The position numbers and the translations under genes were made by a program. Below are positions 4,010 through 43,456 of a stretch of 64,000 bases of DNA, piece after piece (within the stretch, counting starts at the first letter, position 1; each line of letters starts with the position of its first letter). Under the pieces are notes generated by a model that saw nothing but the letters and a program-made list of their open reading frames with translations, was not told the DNA's origin and searched no databases. Source of the DNA: Alistipes sp. (lineage in GTDB: Bacteria; Bacteroidota; Bacteroidia; Bacteroidales; Rikenellaceae); the NCBI GenBank assembly GCA_017555905.1, contig JAFZFP010000029.1, positions 32,360-96,359 of the forward strand, in the 5' to 3' direction.

Positions 4010-5332
4010 CTACAAATTGCCGAGTCGCTCATTCGCCTCACGAATAATATTAAGCGTAGAGCTGTCCTCAACAAAGATTGAGTTGAGACCCTGCTGCTCC
4101 TGTGCTGGATCACCGGTATAGTCGTCACCTTTAGCCCAGTACTCGTGGTCCTCGACATTAGTCTTAGCAAAGCCTCCCCAACTCCAGAAATTGCAACCTG
4201 CGAAGGGTCCATTGTTCTCTTTGTCGTTGAGAATGAGGTCGAAAACGAAGGTATAGTACTTATCGCGGCACACAACAGGGCTACCCTTGTGGAAGTCCAT
4301 ATTGTCGCGTGGCATACCGAACTCCTCAACCACCACAGGCTTGTTAATAGAGTGGCCGAGACCTATGTGCATATCGATATACTCCTTGGTATTTTGACAA
4401 GAGCGATCGAGATCTGCAACCATATTGTCGCCACGCATCCACTTCCAATTGTAGGGCCATACGTGGCAGTTGATATATGATATCTCGTCGAGGGCGTGGA
4501 TGCGCTCGCAGAGAGCCATATCCCACTCGCAACCGTAGAAGCCCTCAGAGCCTGTAGAGATCATATGGTTAGGGTCGAGCGAACGGATGAGTTTCGCTGA
4601 GGCCTCAATCCACTCAGCAAAGGCCTCCTTGTTGTCCTGCTCCTTGCTGCTGAAGGCACGAGGCTCGTTGCAAATCTGCCAAGAGAAGATCGCTGGGTCC
4701 TCGATGTATTTAATACCAGTATAGCGGTTGGTACGTGTGATGATATAACGCAAATGATTAAAGAACAACTCCTTAGCGCGTTCATTACGCACAAACTCTC
4801 CAGCGAAAGCGTTGTACGAGAACCAGCCATCGACACGTGGCACCAACACCGGAGTATTATTTGCCCAAGCCACATATTGTGTGTAACCACCACTCCACTC
4901 CCAAGCATTGTTGAAGTAGAGTACGGCAGTCATATTACGCTTGCCCAACTCCATCATAAGGAAGTCGAGACCAGCCAATACGTCGTCGTTATAGAGACCT
5001 GGCTCAGGCTGTAGGTTAGGCTCAATCTTACCCAAAAGACCATTCTCTCCCTCACCACCAACAAGCACACGGAGGTTGTCGATACCGTGGGACTTCATAA
5101 AATCGAGCTCCCTAACGAGACGCTCACGGTTGCCACCCTCGCCCTCAGAGCCGAGGATTGCTCCATACCAGAAGTTTGTACCCACGAAATAGTATGGCTC
5201 ACCATTGCGAATAAACTGTCCGTCCTTAACCGTAATAATGTTATCTACAGGGGATTTGCCAAACTCTGAGCATCCCACCAAAGCGACCATTGCCACGACT
5301 AAAAGGAGAAATAATCTTTTAAAATTCTTCAT
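4010..5332 (-). CDS. GH5 family mannan endo-1,4-beta-mannosidase, lipoprotein
   Basis: A 440-aa secreted glycoside hydrolase of clan GH-A. The N-terminus is a lipoprotein signal with the lipobox Cys at residue 21 (LVGC). The catalytic TIM barrel begins at once with a GTNFWYG motif. The acid/base is E223 in the CNEP motif and the nucleophile is E337 in VEEFGM. Aromatic residues lining the cleft (NAWEWSGG, HVWPYNW, FWSWGG) fit the GH5_7 endo-beta-mannanases, which cleave internal beta-1,4-mannosyl bonds of plant mannans or glucomannans. No SusC/SusD, transporter or other glycosidase is nearby, so it is an orphan enzyme here and its exact substrate is inferred. It is transcribed divergently from murG. 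Confidence 0.9.
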   Translation of the reverse strand: MKNFKRLFLLLVVAMVALVGCSEFGKSPVDNIITVKDGQFIRNGEPYYFVGTNFWYGAILGSEGEGGNRERLVRELDFMKSHGIDNLRVLVGGEGENGLLGKIEPNLQPEPGLYNDDVLAGLDFLMMELGKRNMTAVLYFNNAWEWSGGYTQYVAWANNTPVLVPRVDGWFSYNAFAGEFVRNERAKELFFNHLRYIITRTNRYTGIKYIEDPAIFSWQICNEPRAFSSKEQDNKEAFAEWIEASAKLIRSLDPNHMISTGSEGFYGCEWDMALCERIHALDEISYINCHVWPYNWKWMRGDNMVADLDRSCQNTKEYIDMHIGLGHSINKPVVVEEFGMPRDNMDFHKGSPVVCRDKYYTFVFDLILNDKENNGPFAGCNFWSWGGFAKTNVEDHEYWAKGDDYTGDPAQEQQGLNSIFVEDSSTLNIIREANERLGNL

Positions 5333-5364
5333 CTCTTTAATATTTTGTGTTTACTAATTTTTCA

Positions 5365-5372
5365 CAAAATTA
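5365..5372 (-). promoter_or_regulatory. -7 box for the GH5 mannanase gene
   Basis: On the minus strand the sequence reads TAATTTTG, 32 bases before the ATG. No convincing -33 box is seen. Confidence 0.45.
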
Positions 5373-5671
5373 CACATTTTTCCCGATTACAACACCATCC
5401 CCACAAAAAGTGATAATTATTTAGCCTCAAACCACCCACTTTTTCGACCATAGCGAGGGTGCTTCGCCACACGATTTTTCCGACTACAAAGGTGTAAATA
5501 TTTTTTAAAAATGGTGGCTCTTAGATTTGTATTTTTTCGTGGGAATATATAATTTTGTAGGGTGAAATTGCAGACATATCCCCAAATGACAAATTGGAAT
5601 CAACTAATTGTCTGAGTATCACATATTTACAATATTGCACAAACACTATTTTTTGCACTATAACGCAACGT
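5373..5671. other. Divergent intergenic region between the mannanase gene and murG
   Basis: AT-rich DNA holding the mannanase promoter at its left end and the murG promoter in its right half, with a ~110-base murG leader. I see no further gene, repeat or clear hairpin. Confidence 0.6.
5526..5557 (+). promoter_or_regulatory. Promoter of the murG-ftsZ block
   Basis: A full Bacteroidetes promoter: TTTG (5526-5529), a 20-base spacer and TAATTTTG (5550-5557). It implies a murG leader of about 105-110 bases and shows that this half of the division cluster has its own promoter. Confidence 0.75.
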
Positions 5672-6778
5672 ATGAAACGAATAATTTTGTCGGGCGGAGG
5701 TACCGGCGGACATATATACCCTGCTATCGCTGTGGCAGAGGCCCTAAAGCGCAAATATAACGAGGATGTAGAGATACTTTTTGTGGGTGCTGAAGGAAAG
5801 ATGGAGATGGAGAAAGTTCCAGCCTTGGGCTACCGCATCGAGAGCCTCCCCGTGGTGGGTCTCCAGCGCCGTTTTGAACTCGCCAACTTGACCATTCCAT
5901 TTAGGCTCGTGGCAAGTATCCGTCGTGCCAAGCGCATAATCCGCGAGTTTGGTGCAGACATCGTTGTCGGCTTTGGTGGCTACGCCTCAGCCCCTATCCT
6001 TTGGGCGGCCCAGCGTCTCGGCATCCCCACAATTATTCAGGAGCAGAACTCATACGCAGGTCTCACCAATAAGTTGCTCTCGAAGCGTGCCAAGCGCATC
6101 TGTGTTGCTTACGACAAGATGGAGCGTTTCTTCCCCAAGGAGCGTATCGTAATGACAGGAAATCCTTTGCGAGGCCGATTCTCGACAAACAACGACCGCA
6201 AGGATGCACTCGCACACTATGGTTTCAATGAGGAGTTGCCCGTAGTATTGGTTGTGGGTGGCTCACTTGGCACTCGTACCCTCAACGAGATGATGAAGGC
6301 CTGGATACTCACTCTCAATGGCACAGCCCCAGTGCAGGTAATCTGGCAGACAGGTAAGTTCTACGAGAGCGAGATGAAGGAGTTCCTCGCCCAGCATCCC
6401 ACAGCGAACATCTGGCAGGGTGCATTCATCGAGCGTATGGACTACGCCTACGGTGCTGCCGACGTGGTGCTTTCACGCAGTGGTGCTTGCACCGTATCGG
6501 AGTTGTGCTTGGTGGCTAAGCCTACCATCTTCGTTCCATCGCCCAATGTGGCTGAGGACCACCAGACAAAGAATGCTATGGCCTTGGTGGAGAAGGGTGC
6601 AGCAGAGATTGTGCGCGACAGCGAGGCTGTGGAGCGAGGTATGCGTGAGGCTGTGGCCCTCGCCCTCGACGCAGAGCGCCGTGAGCAGCTATCAGCAAAT
6701 ATCGCCTCGTTGGCTATCAGCGACTCAGCAGAGCGTGTAGTAATGGAGATTGAGGCGCTACTAACCGCCACAAAATAG
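5672..6778 (+). CDS. murG: UDP-N-acetylglucosamine--N-acetylmuramyl-(pentapeptide) pyrophosphoryl-undecaprenol transferase MurG
   Basis: A 368-aa GT-B glycosyltransferase that adds GlcNAc to lipid I to make lipid II on the inner membrane face. The N-terminal lobe starts with the GGGTGGH loop (about residues 8-14) and holds the EQNSYAGLTNK segment. The C-terminal lobe has GGSLG and the UDP-GlcNAc-binding SRSGA and EDHQTKNA-type regions. The frame is open 26 codons further upstream, but the family start is MKRIILSGGGTGGH, so I use the ATG at 5672. It is the first gene of the plus-strand division block, with murC 8 bases downstream. ftsW, usual immediately upstream, is replaced by a divergent mannanase gene. 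Confidence 0.97.
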   Translation: MKRIILSGGGTGGHIYPAIAVAEALKRKYNEDVEILFVGAEGKMEMEKVPALGYRIESLPVVGLQRRFELANLTIPFRLVASIRRAKRIIREFGADIVVGFGGYASAPILWAAQRLGIPTIIQEQNSYAGLTNKLLSKRAKRICVAYDKMERFFPKERIVMTGNPLRGRFSTNNDRKDALAHYGFNEELPVVLVVGGSLGTRTLNEMMKAWILTLNGTAPVQVIWQTGKFYESEMKEFLAQHPTANIWQGAFIERMDYAYGAADVVLSRSGACTVSELCLVAKPTIFVPSPNVAEDHQTKNAMALVEKGAAEIVRDSEAVERGMREAVALALDAERREQLSANIASLAISDSAERVVMEIEALLTATK

Positions 6779-33069: not shown

Positions 33070-33100
33070 TTTGTTGTTATTGAATTTTTTTGTACTTTTG
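33070..33100 (+). promoter_or_regulatory. Promoter of lipA-lipB-recJ
   Basis: TTTG (33070-33073), a 19-base spacer and TACTTTTG (33093-33100), 28 bases before the lipA ATG. The box excludes the longer frame start at 33090. Confidence 0.75.
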
Positions 33101-36501: not shown

Positions 36502-36547
36502 AAGCGAGGTTGTCACCCCTTGGGGTTTGGCAACCTCGCTTTTTTAT
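36502..36547 (+). terminator. Terminator of the lipA-lipB-recJ operon
   Basis: AAGCGAGGTTG (36502-36512) pairs with CAACCTCGCTT (36531-36541), followed by a T-tract. Confidence 0.88.
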
Positions 36548-36972: not shown

Positions 36973-37455
36973 ATGAAAAAGTTATTGTTTTTGATGGTTG
37001 CGCTCTTCGTAGGTGTTAGCGCATCAGCACAGATGGTTCCAGATGTTAAACTTGAGAACCAGGAGGGTAAGGTTATCTCTACTCGCAACTTGGTGGATGG
37101 TGTTCCAGCAATTATCTCGTTCTGGTCTACCACTTGCAAGCCTTGTATTATGGAGCTCAACGCCATCAACGACAACCTCTACGATTGGTTGGAAGAGGCA
37201 GAGTTCAAGGTGATTGCCGTATCTGTTGATGATGCTCGTACTTTGAGCCGCGCACGTGCTATGACTCAGGGTCAGGGTTGGGACGACTACGTATGCGTTT
37301 ACGACAAGAACCAGGATTTCAAGCGTGCTATGAACGTGAGCCTCACCCCACACACATTCATTATGGATGGTAAGGGTAACATCGTCTACTCACACTCTGG
37401 CTACACTCCAGGTAGCGAGCAGGAGTTGTTCGAGAAGATTAAGGCACTCAAATAA
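36973..37455 (+). CDS. TlpA-like periplasmic thioredoxin-fold protein
   Basis: A 160-aa secreted thioredoxin-fold oxidoreductase. A cleavable signal peptide (residues 1-20, ending SASAQ) precedes a compact TlpA/AhpC-type domain with the active site WSTTCKPC (C55, C58) and the cis-Pro loop LTPHTF (P126). The central insertion between beta2 and alpha2 is short. It should reduce or isomerise disulfides in the periplasm. It opens a four-gene set with a beta-barrel protein and two Omp28-type lipoproteins that also carry CxxC, which suggests dedicated partners (inference). An intercistronic hairpin separates it from the next gene. Confidence 0.9.
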   Translation: MKKLLFLMVALFVGVSASAQMVPDVKLENQEGKVISTRNLVDGVPAIISFWSTTCKPCIMELNAINDNLYDWLEEAEFKVIAVSVDDARTLSRARAMTQGQGWDDYVCVYDKNQDFKRAMNVSLTPHTFIMDGKGNIVYSHSGYTPGSEQELFEKIKALK

Positions 37456-37478
37456 TAAGTTAAACCGATTATATCACA

Positions 37479-37508
37479 GGGAGTTACATTGCAGTAACTC
37501 CCCTTTGT
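37479..37508 (+). terminator. Intercistronic hairpin between the thioredoxin and beta-barrel genes
   Basis: GGGAGTTAC (37479-37487) pairs perfectly with GTAACTCCC (37494-37502), followed by CTTTG only. It could be a partial terminator, or an mRNA 3'-end stabiliser that sets the ratio of the two products. Confidence 0.6.
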
Positions 37509-37530
37509 GTAAAGTAATAAACTTTGTAGG

Positions 37531-39330
37531 ATGAAGAAATTTATACTCTTTTTAGGCGTCGCTCTCTGTGCGACACTTTGTGTTAATGAGGCTTCAGCGC
37601 AGATTAAGGTTGGCGAGGAGGGTCGTCTCTCTATCGCCTTCGAGAGCAGCACAAGTTACTACGCTAAGGATAAACTTTTGGAGGATATTGGTAAGTACAC
37701 CAACTACAATCCTGATCCAGATTATGAGTTTAGTTTTGTCGATGGTCCAGATCGTAGCAACATCGGTTCTAACGACTACCTCAAACTCGACTACTCTTGG
37801 AAGGGTCTTTCGGTAGGTCTTCAGGTTGATGCTTACCTCCCACCACTCTACGGTTACGACCTCTACAAGTACTCACAGCGCGACTCTAAGCTTTCGGGCT
37901 TCCTCTCTAAGTACATCCAGTGGGAGGATAAGAACTGGGGTGTTCGCGTTGGTGATATTTACGACCAGTTTGGTAATGGTCTTATCTTCCGTACCTATGA
38001 GGACCGCAACCTTGCGTTCAACAACTCGTTGGCAGGCGCTCGTGCCTACTACAACTTCAACAACTACGTGAATGTGAAGGTTTTGGCAGGTATGCCACGT
38101 CTCTACGATATCCGCACCAACAACTGGGTATATGGTGGTGACCTTTCACTCTCAATCTCTGATATGGCAGGTTGGAACGACGGTATTGTATCGTTGGAGG
38201 GTAGTTACGTAGGCCGTTACGATAGCGATATTTCGGAGTTCAACGTAATTGACTGGCAGACACAACAGGAGATCAACACCCTTGGTCGTCAGCACATTAA
38301 TATGGTTTCTGGTCGTCTCAACTTCGAGTATATGGGTATCACTCTTCGTGGTGAGTACGCTGCGAAACTCAACAACGACCTCTTCAACAATGCTGCAAAC
38401 GTAGGCAAGGGTAACGCTATCTACGTAGACTTGGGTTACAACTACAAGCGCTTCTCTGCTACTGCAACATTCCGTCGTTTGGAGGGTATGACAACAATGA
38501 TTGACCCACGTAAGGACAACATCTTTGGTGGTAACCTCTTGAACTACATCCCAGTTCTTACTCGTCAGCACACCTACTCGTTGGCAGGTCTCAACCCATT
38601 TATGGGCGCTCCATCGGGTAACGAGATTGGCGGTCAGATCGACTTGTACTACTCGTTGCGCAACAAGAAGGCTCGTGGCAAGTATTGGAACTTCCACGCT
38701 AACTTCTCTATGTTCAATACCTACGACCACGTTGCCTTGAACTCTGATTCAGACATCCGCGAGGGTCGTAACATCTGGCTTGATTTCAACTTCGATGTTG
38801 AGCGTCAGTGGAATAAGTCTGTTAAGACAACCTTCTTCTACTCGTTCCAGCGTCGTGATAGCGACCAGTACGATATGCCTGAGGCACACTACTGCCCATC
38901 ACATATCTTCGTTGCTGACGTAACCTACAAGGTGAACAAGAAGCACTCATTGCGTTTCGAGGCTCAGTATCTCGCTGCAAACAACTACGAGGGTGACTGG
39001 GTAGCAGCAACCATCGAGTACAACTTCGCTCCAATGTTCAGTTTCTACGTGAGCGATATGTGGAACTGCGAGCCTATGCAGGATGGTAGTTATGGTAACT
39101 ACTTCTACCACTACAGTATGGCCAACTCTAACGACCCTGCGTTGTACGAGAACCCATACAAGCACGAACTTTTGCACTACTACCAGGTGGGTGCAAGTTT
39201 CACATACAACAGCCTCCGCGTACAGCTCTCTTACGGCCGTAACCGCGAGGGTATCGTTTGCTCGGGTGGTGTATGCCGCAAGCAGCCAGCCTTCACCGGT
39301 GCAAACCTTGCTTTGACACTCTCATTCTAA
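37531..39330 (+). CDS. DUF6029-type outer-membrane beta-barrel protein
   Basis: A 599-aa predicted outer-membrane protein. A signal peptide (residues 1-24, ending ASAQ) is followed by alternating amphipathic strands rich in Tyr, Phe, Trp and Asn, and the protein ends in Phe, as barrels recognised by BAM do. Repeated strand signatures such as LSVGLQVDAYLPP, NWGVRVGDIYDQFGNGL and YFNFNNYVNVK-like stretches point to ~18 or more strands. It fits DUF6029 as I remember that family. Four cysteines are present; two lie close together near the end (C577 and C582, CSGGVC). It sits between the TlpA-like and Omp28-type genes. Confidence 0.8.
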   Translation: MKKFILFLGVALCATLCVNEASAQIKVGEEGRLSIAFESSTSYYAKDKLLEDIGKYTNYNPDPDYEFSFVDGPDRSNIGSNDYLKLDYSWKGLSVGLQVDAYLPPLYGYDLYKYSQRDSKLSGFLSKYIQWEDKNWGVRVGDIYDQFGNGLIFRTYEDRNLAFNNSLAGARAYYNFNNYVNVKVLAGMPRLYDIRTNNWVYGGDLSLSISDMAGWNDGIVSLEGSYVGRYDSDISEFNVIDWQTQQEINTLGRQHINMVSGRLNFEYMGITLRGEYAAKLNNDLFNNAANVGKGNAIYVDLGYNYKRFSATATFRRLEGMTTMIDPRKDNIFGGNLLNYIPVLTRQHTYSLAGLNPFMGAPSGNEIGGQIDLYYSLRNKKARGKYWNFHANFSMFNTYDHVALNSDSDIREGRNIWLDFNFDVERQWNKSVKTTFFYSFQRRDSDQYDMPEAHYCPSHIFVADVTYKVNKKHSLRFEAQYLAANNYEGDWVAATIEYNFAPMFSFYVSDMWNCEPMQDGSYGNYFYHYSMANSNDPALYENPYKHELLHYYQVGASFTYNSLRVQLSYGRNREGIVCSGGVCRKQPAFTGANLALTLSF

Positions 39331-39348
39331 TCACTTTAGAAAACGAAT

Positions 39349-40452
39349 ATGAAACTTAAGAATCTTTTTGGACTTATCTGTGGCGTAGCTACCCTTATGG
39401 TGGCTTGCGAGGATCCTGAGCAAGGATCAAATCAGAATGGTCCCTCTGGAACGGGTGATGTAACCCTCTCGGTAGTAAACTACTCGGTAGAGATTAATAC
39501 CCCTATCAACTTTATCGTCAAGGATGCTGCAAACGTGGATGTAACTGCGAATGCAACGATCTTCGACAAGACTCACAACTACATGGAGGTCTCAAACCCA
39601 TTCACCCCTACAGAGGATGGTCAGTATGAGTTCTACGCTGTGGCTGGCACATCTATCTCTAACACCATTAAGATTGATGTTGTTCCAACCATCCCTGCTC
39701 TTCCAGAGGATCCACAGCCAACAAACACATCGTTCAACCACCGTCTCCTCTTGGTGGACCACACTGGTACTAACTGTGGTTTCTGCCCTGAGATGATGAA
39801 GGCGTTGAAGGAGGTTGAGGCTATGGAGGGTATGCACGACAAGTACTATGAGACTATGGCACACTCTTACAACACCTCTGACCCTGCATTCTCTGCAGCA
39901 GCAGGCTCTATCTCAACATTCTATGGCGTAAAGGACTACCCACGTCTTACCTACAACTTTGTTTACGACATTCAGTCGGATCGTAACGCGAGCCATATCG
40001 CTCAGCAGATCAACACCATCTGGAAGGAGTATGCTGACGCTGGTATCGCTGCTTCAGCAAGCCTTGCTACAACATCTGTTGTTGTAAACGCAGAGGTTAA
40101 GGCTGCCGTTGCTAACGAGTATCGCGTTACCGCTTGGTTGTTGGAGGATGGCATCGAGGGTACTCAGAAGAATGCTACCGAGGATTGGATGAACATCCAC
40201 AACAATGCTATCCGTCAGGCTGCAACCCTCAACCCTATTTCGGGCTTCGACCTCGGAACTATCGAGGCTGGTAAGTGTGCAACTCAGGCAATGAACCTTG
40301 CCATCACAGGTGCAGGTAGCAACAAGTGGAACCGCGACAACCTCAAGGTTATGGTTATTGCATCGGCTAAGAATGGTGCAGGCAAGTTCGAGGTAGTAAA
40401 CGTCGTTATTTGCCCAGTAAATAGCAGTGTGACATACGATTACAAGAAATAA
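39349..40452 (+). CDS. Omp28-related lipoprotein with thioredoxin-like domain (copy 1)
   Basis: A 367-aa lipoprotein: signal peptide with lipobox Cys at residue 20 (LMVAC), followed by an acidic CEDPEQ start that may favour surface export. Residues ~36-112 form an Ig-like beta domain; residues ~128-260 form a thioredoxin-like domain with NCGFC (C143, C146) and a YP loop (P198) as a candidate cis-Pro; residues ~265-360 form a beta-sandwich. Omp28 of Porphyromonas gingivalis is described as a surface protein with proposed adhesin roles; a redox role is inferred from CxxC and the neighbours. It lies 18 bases after the barrel gene and 38 before its paralogue. Confidence 0.88.
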   Translation: MKLKNLFGLICGVATLMVACEDPEQGSNQNGPSGTGDVTLSVVNYSVEINTPINFIVKDAANVDVTANATIFDKTHNYMEVSNPFTPTEDGQYEFYAVAGTSISNTIKIDVVPTIPALPEDPQPTNTSFNHRLLLVDHTGTNCGFCPEMMKALKEVEAMEGMHDKYYETMAHSYNTSDPAFSAAAGSISTFYGVKDYPRLTYNFVYDIQSDRNASHIAQQINTIWKEYADAGIAASASLATTSVVVNAEVKAAVANEYRVTAWLLEDGIEGTQKNATEDWMNIHNNAIRQAATLNPISGFDLGTIEAGKCATQAMNLAITGAGSNKWNRDNLKVMVIASAKNGAGKFEVVNVVICPVNSSVTYDYKK

Positions 40453-40490
40453 GTTAAACAATATTATCTAACTAAAAACAACACAAAACT

Positions 40491-41639
40491 ATGAAAATCA
40501 CAAAATTCTTTGCGCTTCTTGGCGCTGTAGCATTTGCTTTTGCTGCTTGTGAGCAAGTCAACAATGGTGGTGACAACAATGGCCCTCAGCAGGGTGGTAC
40601 CGATGGTCCAGATCGTCCTGAGCCAACAGGTAGCATCACTCTTTCTGCTGACAAGCTCTCTGTTGCAGTTGGTGAGGTTGTAACATTCACTGTTACTGAT
40701 GCTGAGAACCAGGACGTAACATCACAGGCTAACATCTACGATGCTGAGTTGAACGTAGTAAAGTCTGGCCAGTGGACTGCAGCAACTACTGGTGTTTACG
40801 AGTTCTTCGCTACTGTAGGCAGCGAGAATTCTAACTATGTTAAGGTTTCAGTTATGGCTGAGGTTCCTGAGATCCCAGAGAATCCAGAGCCAGAGAACCT
40901 CGCATTCAACCACCGTGCTATCCTCGTTGATTTCACAGGTGTAAACTGCGGTTTCTGCCCTGATATGATTGACGAGTTGATTAAGTTGGAGAAGACAAGT
41001 TGGGGGCCTCACTTCAACGAGGTAACTTGCCACGCTGGTACTTATGCTGGTGGTGACCCTGCAAACAGCGCTGCTGCTAACTCTTTGAACCAGTACTATG
41101 GTGGTCGTATCTCAGGTTACCCAACCCTTATTATGAACTTCAACGGCACAGGTATCAGCCGTGACTACAACGCTATGGCATCAACTCTTCAGGGTTACAT
41201 CCAGTTGGATGGTGCTGACGTAGGTATCTCTATGGCAGTATGTGGCGACAGCGAGAACGTTTACTTCGCATCTGAGATTAAGGCTGCTAAGACTAACGAG
41301 TACCGCGCTACTGCTTGGTTGCTCGAGAGCGACATCTATAGCCCAAACCAGTCTGGTGCTACAAAGCCTGAGCACTACATCTACGACTTCGCTATCCGTA
41401 ACGGTCTTAACATCACTCGTTCAGATATCTCTGGTGAGGATCTTGGCACTATCGAGGCAGGTAAGTCAGTAGAGTACTCACGCACACTCGGTATAACAAG
41501 CAAGACTTGGGTTGCTGATAACTTGGGCGTTATCGTAATCGTTAGCGCTAAGGATAAGAATAATCGCTGGGAGGTTGTAAACTCATTGTACTGCCCAGTA
41601 AACGAGAGCAAGGCATTCGAGTTCGTAACTGCTGAGTAA
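40491..41639 (+). CDS. Omp28-related lipoprotein with thioredoxin-like domain (copy 2)
   Basis: A 382-aa paralogue of the preceding gene in the same order: lipobox Cys at residue 20 (FAFAAC), a Gly/Asn/Pro-rich spacer (about 21-46), an Ig-like domain (about 47-123), and a thioredoxin-like domain with VNCGFC (C153, C156) and a classic YPT cis-Pro loop (P211). Matching segments flank the CxxC in both copies (FNHRxxLVDxTGxNCGFCPxM), so this is a tandem duplication that has since diverged. It closes the cluster; a GAGGGTGTC-type terminator follows 40 bases later. Confidence 0.88.
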   Translation: MKITKFFALLGAVAFAFAACEQVNNGGDNNGPQQGGTDGPDRPEPTGSITLSADKLSVAVGEVVTFTVTDAENQDVTSQANIYDAELNVVKSGQWTAATTGVYEFFATVGSENSNYVKVSVMAEVPEIPENPEPENLAFNHRAILVDFTGVNCGFCPDMIDELIKLEKTSWGPHFNEVTCHAGTYAGGDPANSAAANSLNQYYGGRISGYPTLIMNFNGTGISRDYNAMASTLQGYIQLDGADVGISMAVCGDSENVYFASEIKAAKTNEYRATAWLLESDIYSPNQSGATKPEHYIYDFAIRNGLNITRSDISGEDLGTIEAGKSVEYSRTLGITSKTWVADNLGVIVIVSAKDKNNRWEVVNSLYCPVNESKAFEFVTAE

Positions 41640-41679
41640 CACATACTTTGACAAACGAAATCGGCTTTGGCCAAATAAA

Positions 41680-41722
41680 GGAGAGGGTGTCCACAGAAGA
41701 TGTGGGACACCCTCTCCTCTTA
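41680..41722 (+). terminator. Terminator of the thioredoxin/Omp28 cluster (GAGGGTGTC family)
   Basis: GGAGAGGGTGTCC (41680-41692) pairs with GGACACCCTCTCC (41705-41717), extended inward by ACA/TGT, and runs into a TCTTATTTAT tail. Confidence 0.85.
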
Positions 41723-41782
41723 TTTATATATAGGTAAAGCAAGAAAAAGGGATAAAGATTTTTTTCTTACCTCAGCATTTCG

Positions 41783-43325: not shown

Positions 43326-43425
43326 GAGGTCCGAAATAGACAAAAATAAGTGGTATAAATACCTATTCTGCATCGCTGGCAGGCTATTATGGCCCGTCAG
43401 CGATATCTCTTTGGTTTTTATTGAG

Positions 43426-43433
43426 TATATTTG
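43426..43433 (+). promoter_or_regulatory. -7 box for the acyltransferase/SDR pair
   Basis: TATATTTG, 23 bases before the acyltransferase ATG. A TTTG lies upstream at 43410, but only 12 bases away. Confidence 0.45.
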
Positions 43434-43456
43434 CATAAATTTGAATAGAAACTACT

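Follow-up and report, generated by a model that had tools for sequence, protein, structure and literature searches.

The window analysed here is a stretch of 64,000 nucleotides from Alistipes sp. (GCA_017555905.1, contig JAFZFP010000029.1, positions 32,360 to 96,359), which comes from an assembly of 1.77 Mb that is 87% complete. Between positions 36973 and 41639 of its + strand lies a cluster of four co-directional open reading frames, separated by gaps of 75, 18, and 38 bp, with a recJ-like gene 504 bp upstream and a cyclophilin gene 175 bp downstream. An initial annotation made from the letters alone had placed four closely spaced genes for envelope proteins here, and their positions, strand, and short gaps were all borne out. 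The cluster comprises the following:

36973..37455, + strand: TlpA/ResA-like thioredoxin, 160 residues, CKPC motif (C55/C58); PF00578, E = 4.6e-17
37531..39330, + strand: DUF6029 outer-membrane beta-barrel, 599 residues, C-terminal Phe; PF19494, E = 3.2e-143
39259..39276, + strand: codons of the invariant C577-SGGV-C582, in the loop preceding the last strand of the barrel; both cysteines in 90/90 aligned barrels
39349..40452, + strand: Omp28 lipoprotein A, 367 residues, with lipobox (C20), NCGFC (C143/C146), and Tyr-Pro (P198); PF11551, E = 1.7e-20
40491..41639, + strand: Omp28 lipoprotein B, 382 residues, with lipobox, NCGFC, and Tyr-Pro; PF11551, E = 1.4e-18

The first product was classed as TlpA/ResA-like because of its AhpC-TSA domain and the CKPC motif, and its signal peptide was recognized by eye, with no lipobox visible. 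Its closest structure is PDB 2m72 (E = 2.7e-40), which we take to be PG2175, while ResA, TlpA, and DsbE structures matched more weakly, and it did not reach the NCBIfam cut-offs for ResA (52.7 bits vs. 170), TlpA (40.1 vs. 230), or DsbE (38.2 vs. 123). In the portions of the literature available to us, PG2173-PG2175 of Porphyromonas gingivalis appear only in tables or lists. The barrel matches DUF6029 over its full length (residues 1-599; 478.7 bits vs. a cut-off of 27) and no other Pfam family. Both lipoproteins belong to Omp28 (74.0 and 67.8 bits vs. a cut-off of 34.9); they are related to the NCBIfam subfamily lipoprot_Omp28 (NF033782) but fall outside it, with 35.2 and 47.8 bits against a cut-off of 150, and they do not reach the Omp28_seleno cut-off either (17.3 vs. 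200). Their signal peptides and lipoboxes (VAC-E, AAC-E) were read by eye.

In a phylum set of 198 Bacteroidota genomes, DUF6029 was present in 56, the source genome included, and in 8 of the 61 genomes of the window's own family. Neighborhoods were sampled at 56 DUF6029 loci from the 55 other genomes and at a further 35 loci from named genomes, and neighbors were counted by Pfam scans of the genes at fixed positions from the barrel, with 25 families listed per position. Directly upstream, at position -1, AhpC-TSA occurred in 47/56 loci, while position +1 held Omp28 in 29/56 and Redoxin in 17/56, and position +2 held Redoxin in 13/54. At the control position -3, Omp28 was found in 2/54 and AhpC-TSA, absent among the 25 families listed (the rarest of them with 2 members), in at most two. 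In 51 of the 56 loci, a TlpA gene is no more than two positions away from the barrel, namely in the 47 at -1, two missed by open reading frame calling and recovered by search (L074 and L080), and two at -2 (L089 and L092), and this holds in 17 of 20 family codes. Within three genes of the barrel there is a thioredoxin-fold partner in 53 of the 56 loci, counting L075 (with an Omp28 gene missed by open reading frame calling), L106 at +2, and L089 and L091-L094, where it is upstream. The initial annotation had raised the possibility that the gene order recurs in Bacteroidota, and these counts show that it does. The arrangement varies in detail: the TlpA gene is adjacent to the barrel gene in divergent orientation in L084-L088, and the two genes overlap by 4 bp in 15 of the 17 loci L108-L124. 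Among the named genomes, TlpA stands at -1 in 33 of the 34 loci having a gene there, as well as in L064 by six-frame search, and Omp28 stands at +1 in 34/35 and at +2 in 31/35; most of these loci are close relatives and represent few independent cases. Of the 35, 31 match the window barrel at 55-69% identity, nearly all of them from Alistipes or Rikenellaceae metagenome genomes. In f24 loci (e.g., L074, L076, L078, L080, and L081), genes of approximately 550 residues on the opposite strand occupy position +2, after Omp28.

The TlpA protein and the barrel also co-occur across genomes. With the window TlpA as query, 54 of the 56 DUF6029 genomes vs. 0 of the 142 others gave a match below E = 1e-13 (Fisher p = 1e-46). 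As this line was set after seeing the data and the genomes are not independent, the p values are descriptive only; the best genome without DUF6029 gave a match at 1.0e-12, and two DUF6029 genomes miss the line (G164 at 1.5e-12 and G180 at 2.1e-11). For 50 of the 55 other DUF6029 genomes, the top-scoring TlpA match of the whole genome is less than 4 kb away from the barrel; for the remaining five it is elsewhere, with E values of 2e-45 to 1.5e-12. Omp28 was found in 38/56 DUF6029 genomes vs. 3/142 others (p = 2e-23). We consider it quite probable that these genes make up a dedicated outer-membrane redox module.

The close cysteine pair that the initial annotation had pointed out near the end of the barrel proved to be conserved beyond chance, as C577 and C582 are kept, with constant loop length, in all 90 barrels that could be aligned (92 minus L068, a partial barrel, and L083, in which the reading frame is broken near the end in the assembly used). 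In L083 (G023:C49:13213-14930) the barrel match falls into two pieces near the C-terminal end. Only eight columns (G141, G150, P341, G574, C577, G580, C582, and G590) are the same throughout a set of 35 barrels hand-picked from the 92 (profile A7; the window barrel plus 34 with 15-72% identity to it), and the cysteine loop accounts for five of the eight. Exactly two cysteines past residue 25 are present in 45 of 91 barrels (L068 left out), and the window barrel has only those at 455, 513, 577, and 582. The last strands can be recognized in the barrel alignment from hydrophobic alternation at 564/566/568 and 591/593/595/599. A polar turn lies near 559-561, and over residues 549-599 the sole gap affects approximately 1% of sequences at one position. 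Barrels that end in Phe have a periplasmic C-terminus, and together with the strand pattern this would place the C577/C582 loop at the outer face. Variation in a barrel is usually greatest in its outer loops, and the constancy here therefore argues for a function. The residue after the second loop cysteine is Tyr in all 17 loci with redoxin partners (L108-L124) and Arg in the other 73 barrels, a split that is only suggestive and probably reflects one event in one clade. A second barrel profile (A5; the 34 barrels of the named set minus L038 and L053) gave PDB matches to RecA fusion chains that we discarded as artefacts, and no stretch passed by itself.

The partner proteins have conserved cysteines as well. 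In the alignment of the 65 partners of the phylum set (35 Omp28 and 30 Redoxin), two Cys columns are the sole invariant columns and CxxC is present in 65/65. C143, C146, and P198 are kept in all 37 module Omp28 proteins (the window's two included), CxxC is found in 30/30 redoxin partners, and CKPC is present in 33/49 module TlpA proteins of the phylum set, the remainder having a different CxxC (counted by first match). The initial annotation had given each Omp28 lipoprotein an Ig-like domain and a thioredoxin-like domain. The former, at the N-terminus, could not be confirmed, with no Pfam match there at E 0.1, but the latter is supported at the sequence level by the invariant CxxC, by the matching proline, and by a profile comparison: an Omp28 profile (A6; 63 Omp28 proteins of the named set minus 19) matched PDB 5y1a (HBP35; residues 31-252, through CGYC) at E = 6.3e-6, with Phe-Pro where the window proteins have Tyr-Pro. 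The same profile matched PDB 2r2c (Omp28), C-terminal part, at E = 3.8e-4.

Many partners carry signals for export. A type IX sorting tail was detected in 28/65 of them (Pfam, E 1e-3), for example in L098, in the second partner of L108, and in L123. As type IX cargo ends up outside the cell, these thioredoxins should work beyond the outer membrane. The aligned lipobox cysteine is present in 24/37 Omp28 proteins and 16/30 redoxins, and we infer that the lipoprotein partners also work there. Both types meet in L108-L124, where in 11/17 loci two redoxins stand in succession from +1, the second with a tail-like C-terminus (by a rough pattern); in 10 of these 11 pairs the first has a lipobox. Neither Omp28 lipoprotein of the window matched Por_Secre_tail in Pfam, and no SprA match was found in the window genome (an 87% complete assembly); the window set uses two lipoproteins. 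Although SprA_N is present in 55/56 DUF6029 genomes vs. 98/142 others, type IX secretion was rejected as a requirement for the module in the window genome, where SprA_N had no match. Family f17 further confounds these counts, as 18 of the 20 SprA-less genomes listed belong to it.

As for the redox supply, an open frame of 651 residues in the source genome encodes a DsbD domain, which makes it likely that the periplasm receives reducing power. VKOR and DsbB, two known oxidase families, had no match in this genome, which is weak evidence given the incomplete assembly. A link with an oxidant supply was examined and dropped, as VKOR showed no clear association with DUF6029 (7/56 genomes vs. 34/142 others, p = 0.08).

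These observations lead us to lean, if only somewhat, towards a dedicated thiol-disulfide relay of the outer membrane that runs from the periplasmic TlpA to the barrel and on to surface thioredoxins, probably in the reducing direction. In such a relay, the TlpA-type thioredoxin would be recharged in the periplasm, probably by the DsbD-type protein of the genome, and would pass its reducing equivalents on, either to the DUF6029 barrel or through it. C577/C582 on the outer face would then exchange disulfides with surface-held thioredoxin-fold proteins, namely the two Omp28 lipoproteins in the window and often type IX cargo elsewhere, and these would in turn reduce disulfides, whether on secreted proteins, on those of the surface, or in the surroundings. 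The thiol state could cross the barrel by a moving loop, by docking of TlpA in the lumen, or by small thiols passing through the pore. Thiol exchange through the barrel is in our judgement the likeliest way for the module to work, a view that we hold with about even confidence. The initial annotation had proposed a relay of this kind, with the thioredoxin keeping the lipoproteins' CxxC reduced and the barrel anchoring or displaying them. Its gene order and its thioredoxin-like domain stand, anchoring or display by the barrel gained no support, and the crossing of the outer membrane gains two supports, the type IX tails on 28/65 partners and the invariant cysteine loop that appears to look outward.

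Several points weigh against this relay. We know of no way for a protein barrel to pass electrons. A broad profile (A7) found no solved relative of the barrel in the PDB by sequence, so the side of the loop is placed by the strand pattern and by general barrel rules. The window Omp28 lipoproteins would have to face outward, in a genome with no SprA match. TlpA is not beside the barrel in 5/56 loci (three of f32, one each of f33 and f36), where each genome carries a TlpA match elsewhere, and L082, L087, and L090 (3/56) showed no thioredoxin-fold partner up to three genes from the barrel. The surveyed genomes are related, so that the counts are not independent. The reducing direction is weakly supported: one clade has CPHC, the motif of DsbA, which would also fit oxidation, as would the reported complementation of a dsbA mutant by HBP35 (PMC2907840).

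Among the alternatives, the one that survives best, though we think it unlikely, is that the cysteine pair serves the barrel only as a structural disulfide, that TlpA and the partners are dedicated factors for its assembly or repair, and that nothing crosses the membrane. Dsb proteins serve LptD in a comparable manner, two cysteines as close as this in a hairpin (four residues apart) could staple the loop, and the strict co-occurrence of TlpA and barrel would be expected. Folding factors should be periplasmic, yet 28/65 partners have type IX tails that send them outward, and it would be costly to keep one to three thioredoxins for the sake of a single short disulfide. More doubtful still is a redox-gated pore, in which the cysteine loop folds into the lumen or over it and its redox state, set by thioredoxins on both sides of the membrane, controls whether a nutrient, haem, or a small thiol can pass. 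A loop that does not vary in length among the 90 aligned barrels would suit such a gate, as would the haemin binding of HBP35 and its role in growth on low haemin, although its haemin site lies outside the thioredoxin part (PMC2907840). Among the families listed, however, those for iron or haem are rare at +2 (FeoA with an iron-dependent repressor in 2/54, Haem_bd in 1/54), and so are those for transport (ABC_tran in 2/54 at -3, EamA in 1/56 at -1).

It is very improbable that DUF6029 is a Wzi-related polysaccharide export porin with incidental redox neighbors. Export was suggested from similarity to Wzi, as HHpred relates many Wzi-type barrels near OPX genes to DUF6029 (PMC9603273), and in our survey Wzi-family genes occur at +2 in 6/54 loci and an O-mannosyl-transferase-like family at -3 in 3/54. 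The surveyed neighborhoods nevertheless lend the idea little support: thioredoxin-fold proteins are the commonest neighbors, the 25 families listed per position include neither a further glycosyltransferase nor any OPX family, and the invariant cysteine pair would be left unexplained. Equally far-fetched is a Slam-like export of the Omp28 lipoproteins to the surface by the barrel, with TlpA keeping the cargo reduced, which would fit the adjoining lipoprotein genes in the window and its relatives but is unneeded by the 28/65 partners with their own type IX signal and again leaves the barrel's cysteine pair unexplained.

Returning to the thiol relay, its closest counterpart among studied proteins is HBP35 of P. 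gingivalis, described in 2010 as a surface protein with thioredoxin activity (PMC2907840). According to the parts of this report that we draw on, HBP35 exceeds E. coli thioredoxin in insulin-reducing activity, which is lost in C48S/C51S, and its surface location depends on its C-terminal domain. It binds haemin and aids growth on low haemin, and no positive result for protection against oxidative stress is given there. The authors called the role of the thioredoxin domain unknown and suggested upkeep of the cell-surface redox state, and the same parts name no barrel partner or electron source for it. HBP35 resembles the window Omp28 proteins in its CxxC and in having, by profile match, a thioredoxin and an Omp28-like domain, and differs in that it has a type IX tail where they have a lipobox. 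For Omp28 (PF11551, PDB 2r2c), the family of both window lipoproteins, no redox role or partner is named in the literature found, of which only part was accessible; the term "adhesin" for it comes from the initial annotation. The window TlpA matches TlpA/ResA/DsbE thioredoxins (PDB 2m72, 1st9, and 1jfu) in sequence and in CxxC but differs in being tied to a barrel. The studied proteins of this type serve cytochrome c or a peroxiredoxin. The system ScsB-TlpA-PprX is an example of the latter (PMC5403849).

Larger redox systems offer further comparisons. In DsbD/CcdA/ScsB relays, cysteine pairs likewise pass reducing power across a membrane to thioredoxins, but these proteins are alpha-helical and lie in the inner membrane, whereas the window barrel matches only DUF6029; the DsbD-type domain PF02683 has no match in the four cluster proteins and one elsewhere in the genome. 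MtrCAB-type conduits share the plan of a barrel flanked by redox proteins on both sides but work with c-type haems, whereas the window proteins read CKPCI and CGFCP, with no CxxCH at these sites. To our knowledge, the thiol relays known to date cross the inner membrane only. A narrow search of open-licence PubMed Central, with sources seen in part, found no outer-membrane relay of this kind described. If the relay exists, the module would be a candidate electron source for HBP35-type surface thioredoxins, DUF6029 and Omp28 would gain a role, and Bacteroidota could reduce disulfides outside the cell.

A small Ig-like protein is likely a further part of the module in some clades. In 18/56 phylum loci, and also near the relocated TlpA in three f32 genomes, there is an Ig-like domain that bears a C-x3/4-C cysteine pair (x11 in L071) and in many cases precedes a type IX tail (in all, L070, L071, L074-L078, L080-L082, L085, L086, L089-L094, and L125-L127); 11 of the 18 were seeds picked by location, so that the count is partly circular, and the non-seeds are L074, L077, L080, L082, L085, L086, L089, and L125-L127. 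The domain mostly adjoins TlpA, and in L085 and L086 it lies approximately 6 kb from the barrel. All five of these proteins that were scanned matched a type IX tail, if in some cases weakly, and no Pfam family covered the domain in them. At 1e-5, cysteine pair aside, it was found in 24 DUF6029 genomes and 5 others among the 198, not always near the module, and not in the window genome. In these clades the protein may be the next carrier or client after the surface thioredoxins. We tentatively entertain, a little short of favoring it, the picture of a Bacteroidota machine that carries reducing power through the outer membrane and in some clades includes such a carrier or client.

Two other Omp28 observations lie apart from the module. 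A third Omp28-domain lipoprotein of 557 residues (G000:C5:6476-6973; L003, and L130 at 4980-6653) is followed by another lipoprotein gene, with no DUF6029 within the 10.5 kb examined. An Omp28-named surface protein of Paraprevotella causes trypsin breakdown (PMC9477747); a link was set aside, as that protein was modelled as WD40 plus Ig-like and the text available to us contains neither "thioredoxin" nor "disulfide".

The cluster is flanked and interrupted by candidate RNA structures:

36505..36545, + strand: intrinsic-terminator-like hairpin after the recJ-like gene, upstream of the cluster; RNA fold -20.7 kcal/mol, z = -4.8, T run after it
37479..37502, + strand: hairpin in the TlpA-barrel gap, possible attenuator; conserved in related Alistipes-like loci
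41679..41718, + strand: strong hairpin 3' of the cluster, probable terminator; fold of 41676-41735 -32.8 kcal/mol, z = -6.3

The terminator scan listed the first of these, among a number of sites in the region that is not above chance, and did not list the third, whose tail is T-rich with no clean T run. A window-wide scan for a Bacteroidetes-type promoter pattern gave no match in the gap upstream of the cluster, and five matches in the window vs. 0.63 expected, including 33070-33100 and 43410-43443. All 29 TlpA-barrel gaps of at least 20 bp (from Alistipes-like genomes, most of L034-L067) fold at -19 kcal/mol or lower. In 16 of these 29, hand-picked for similar stems, nine pairs of the hairpin are shared, four of them with compensatory changes, and two pairs have 2 and 1 broken cells. 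The hairpin could be an attenuator or a processing site that sets the ratio of TlpA to barrel.

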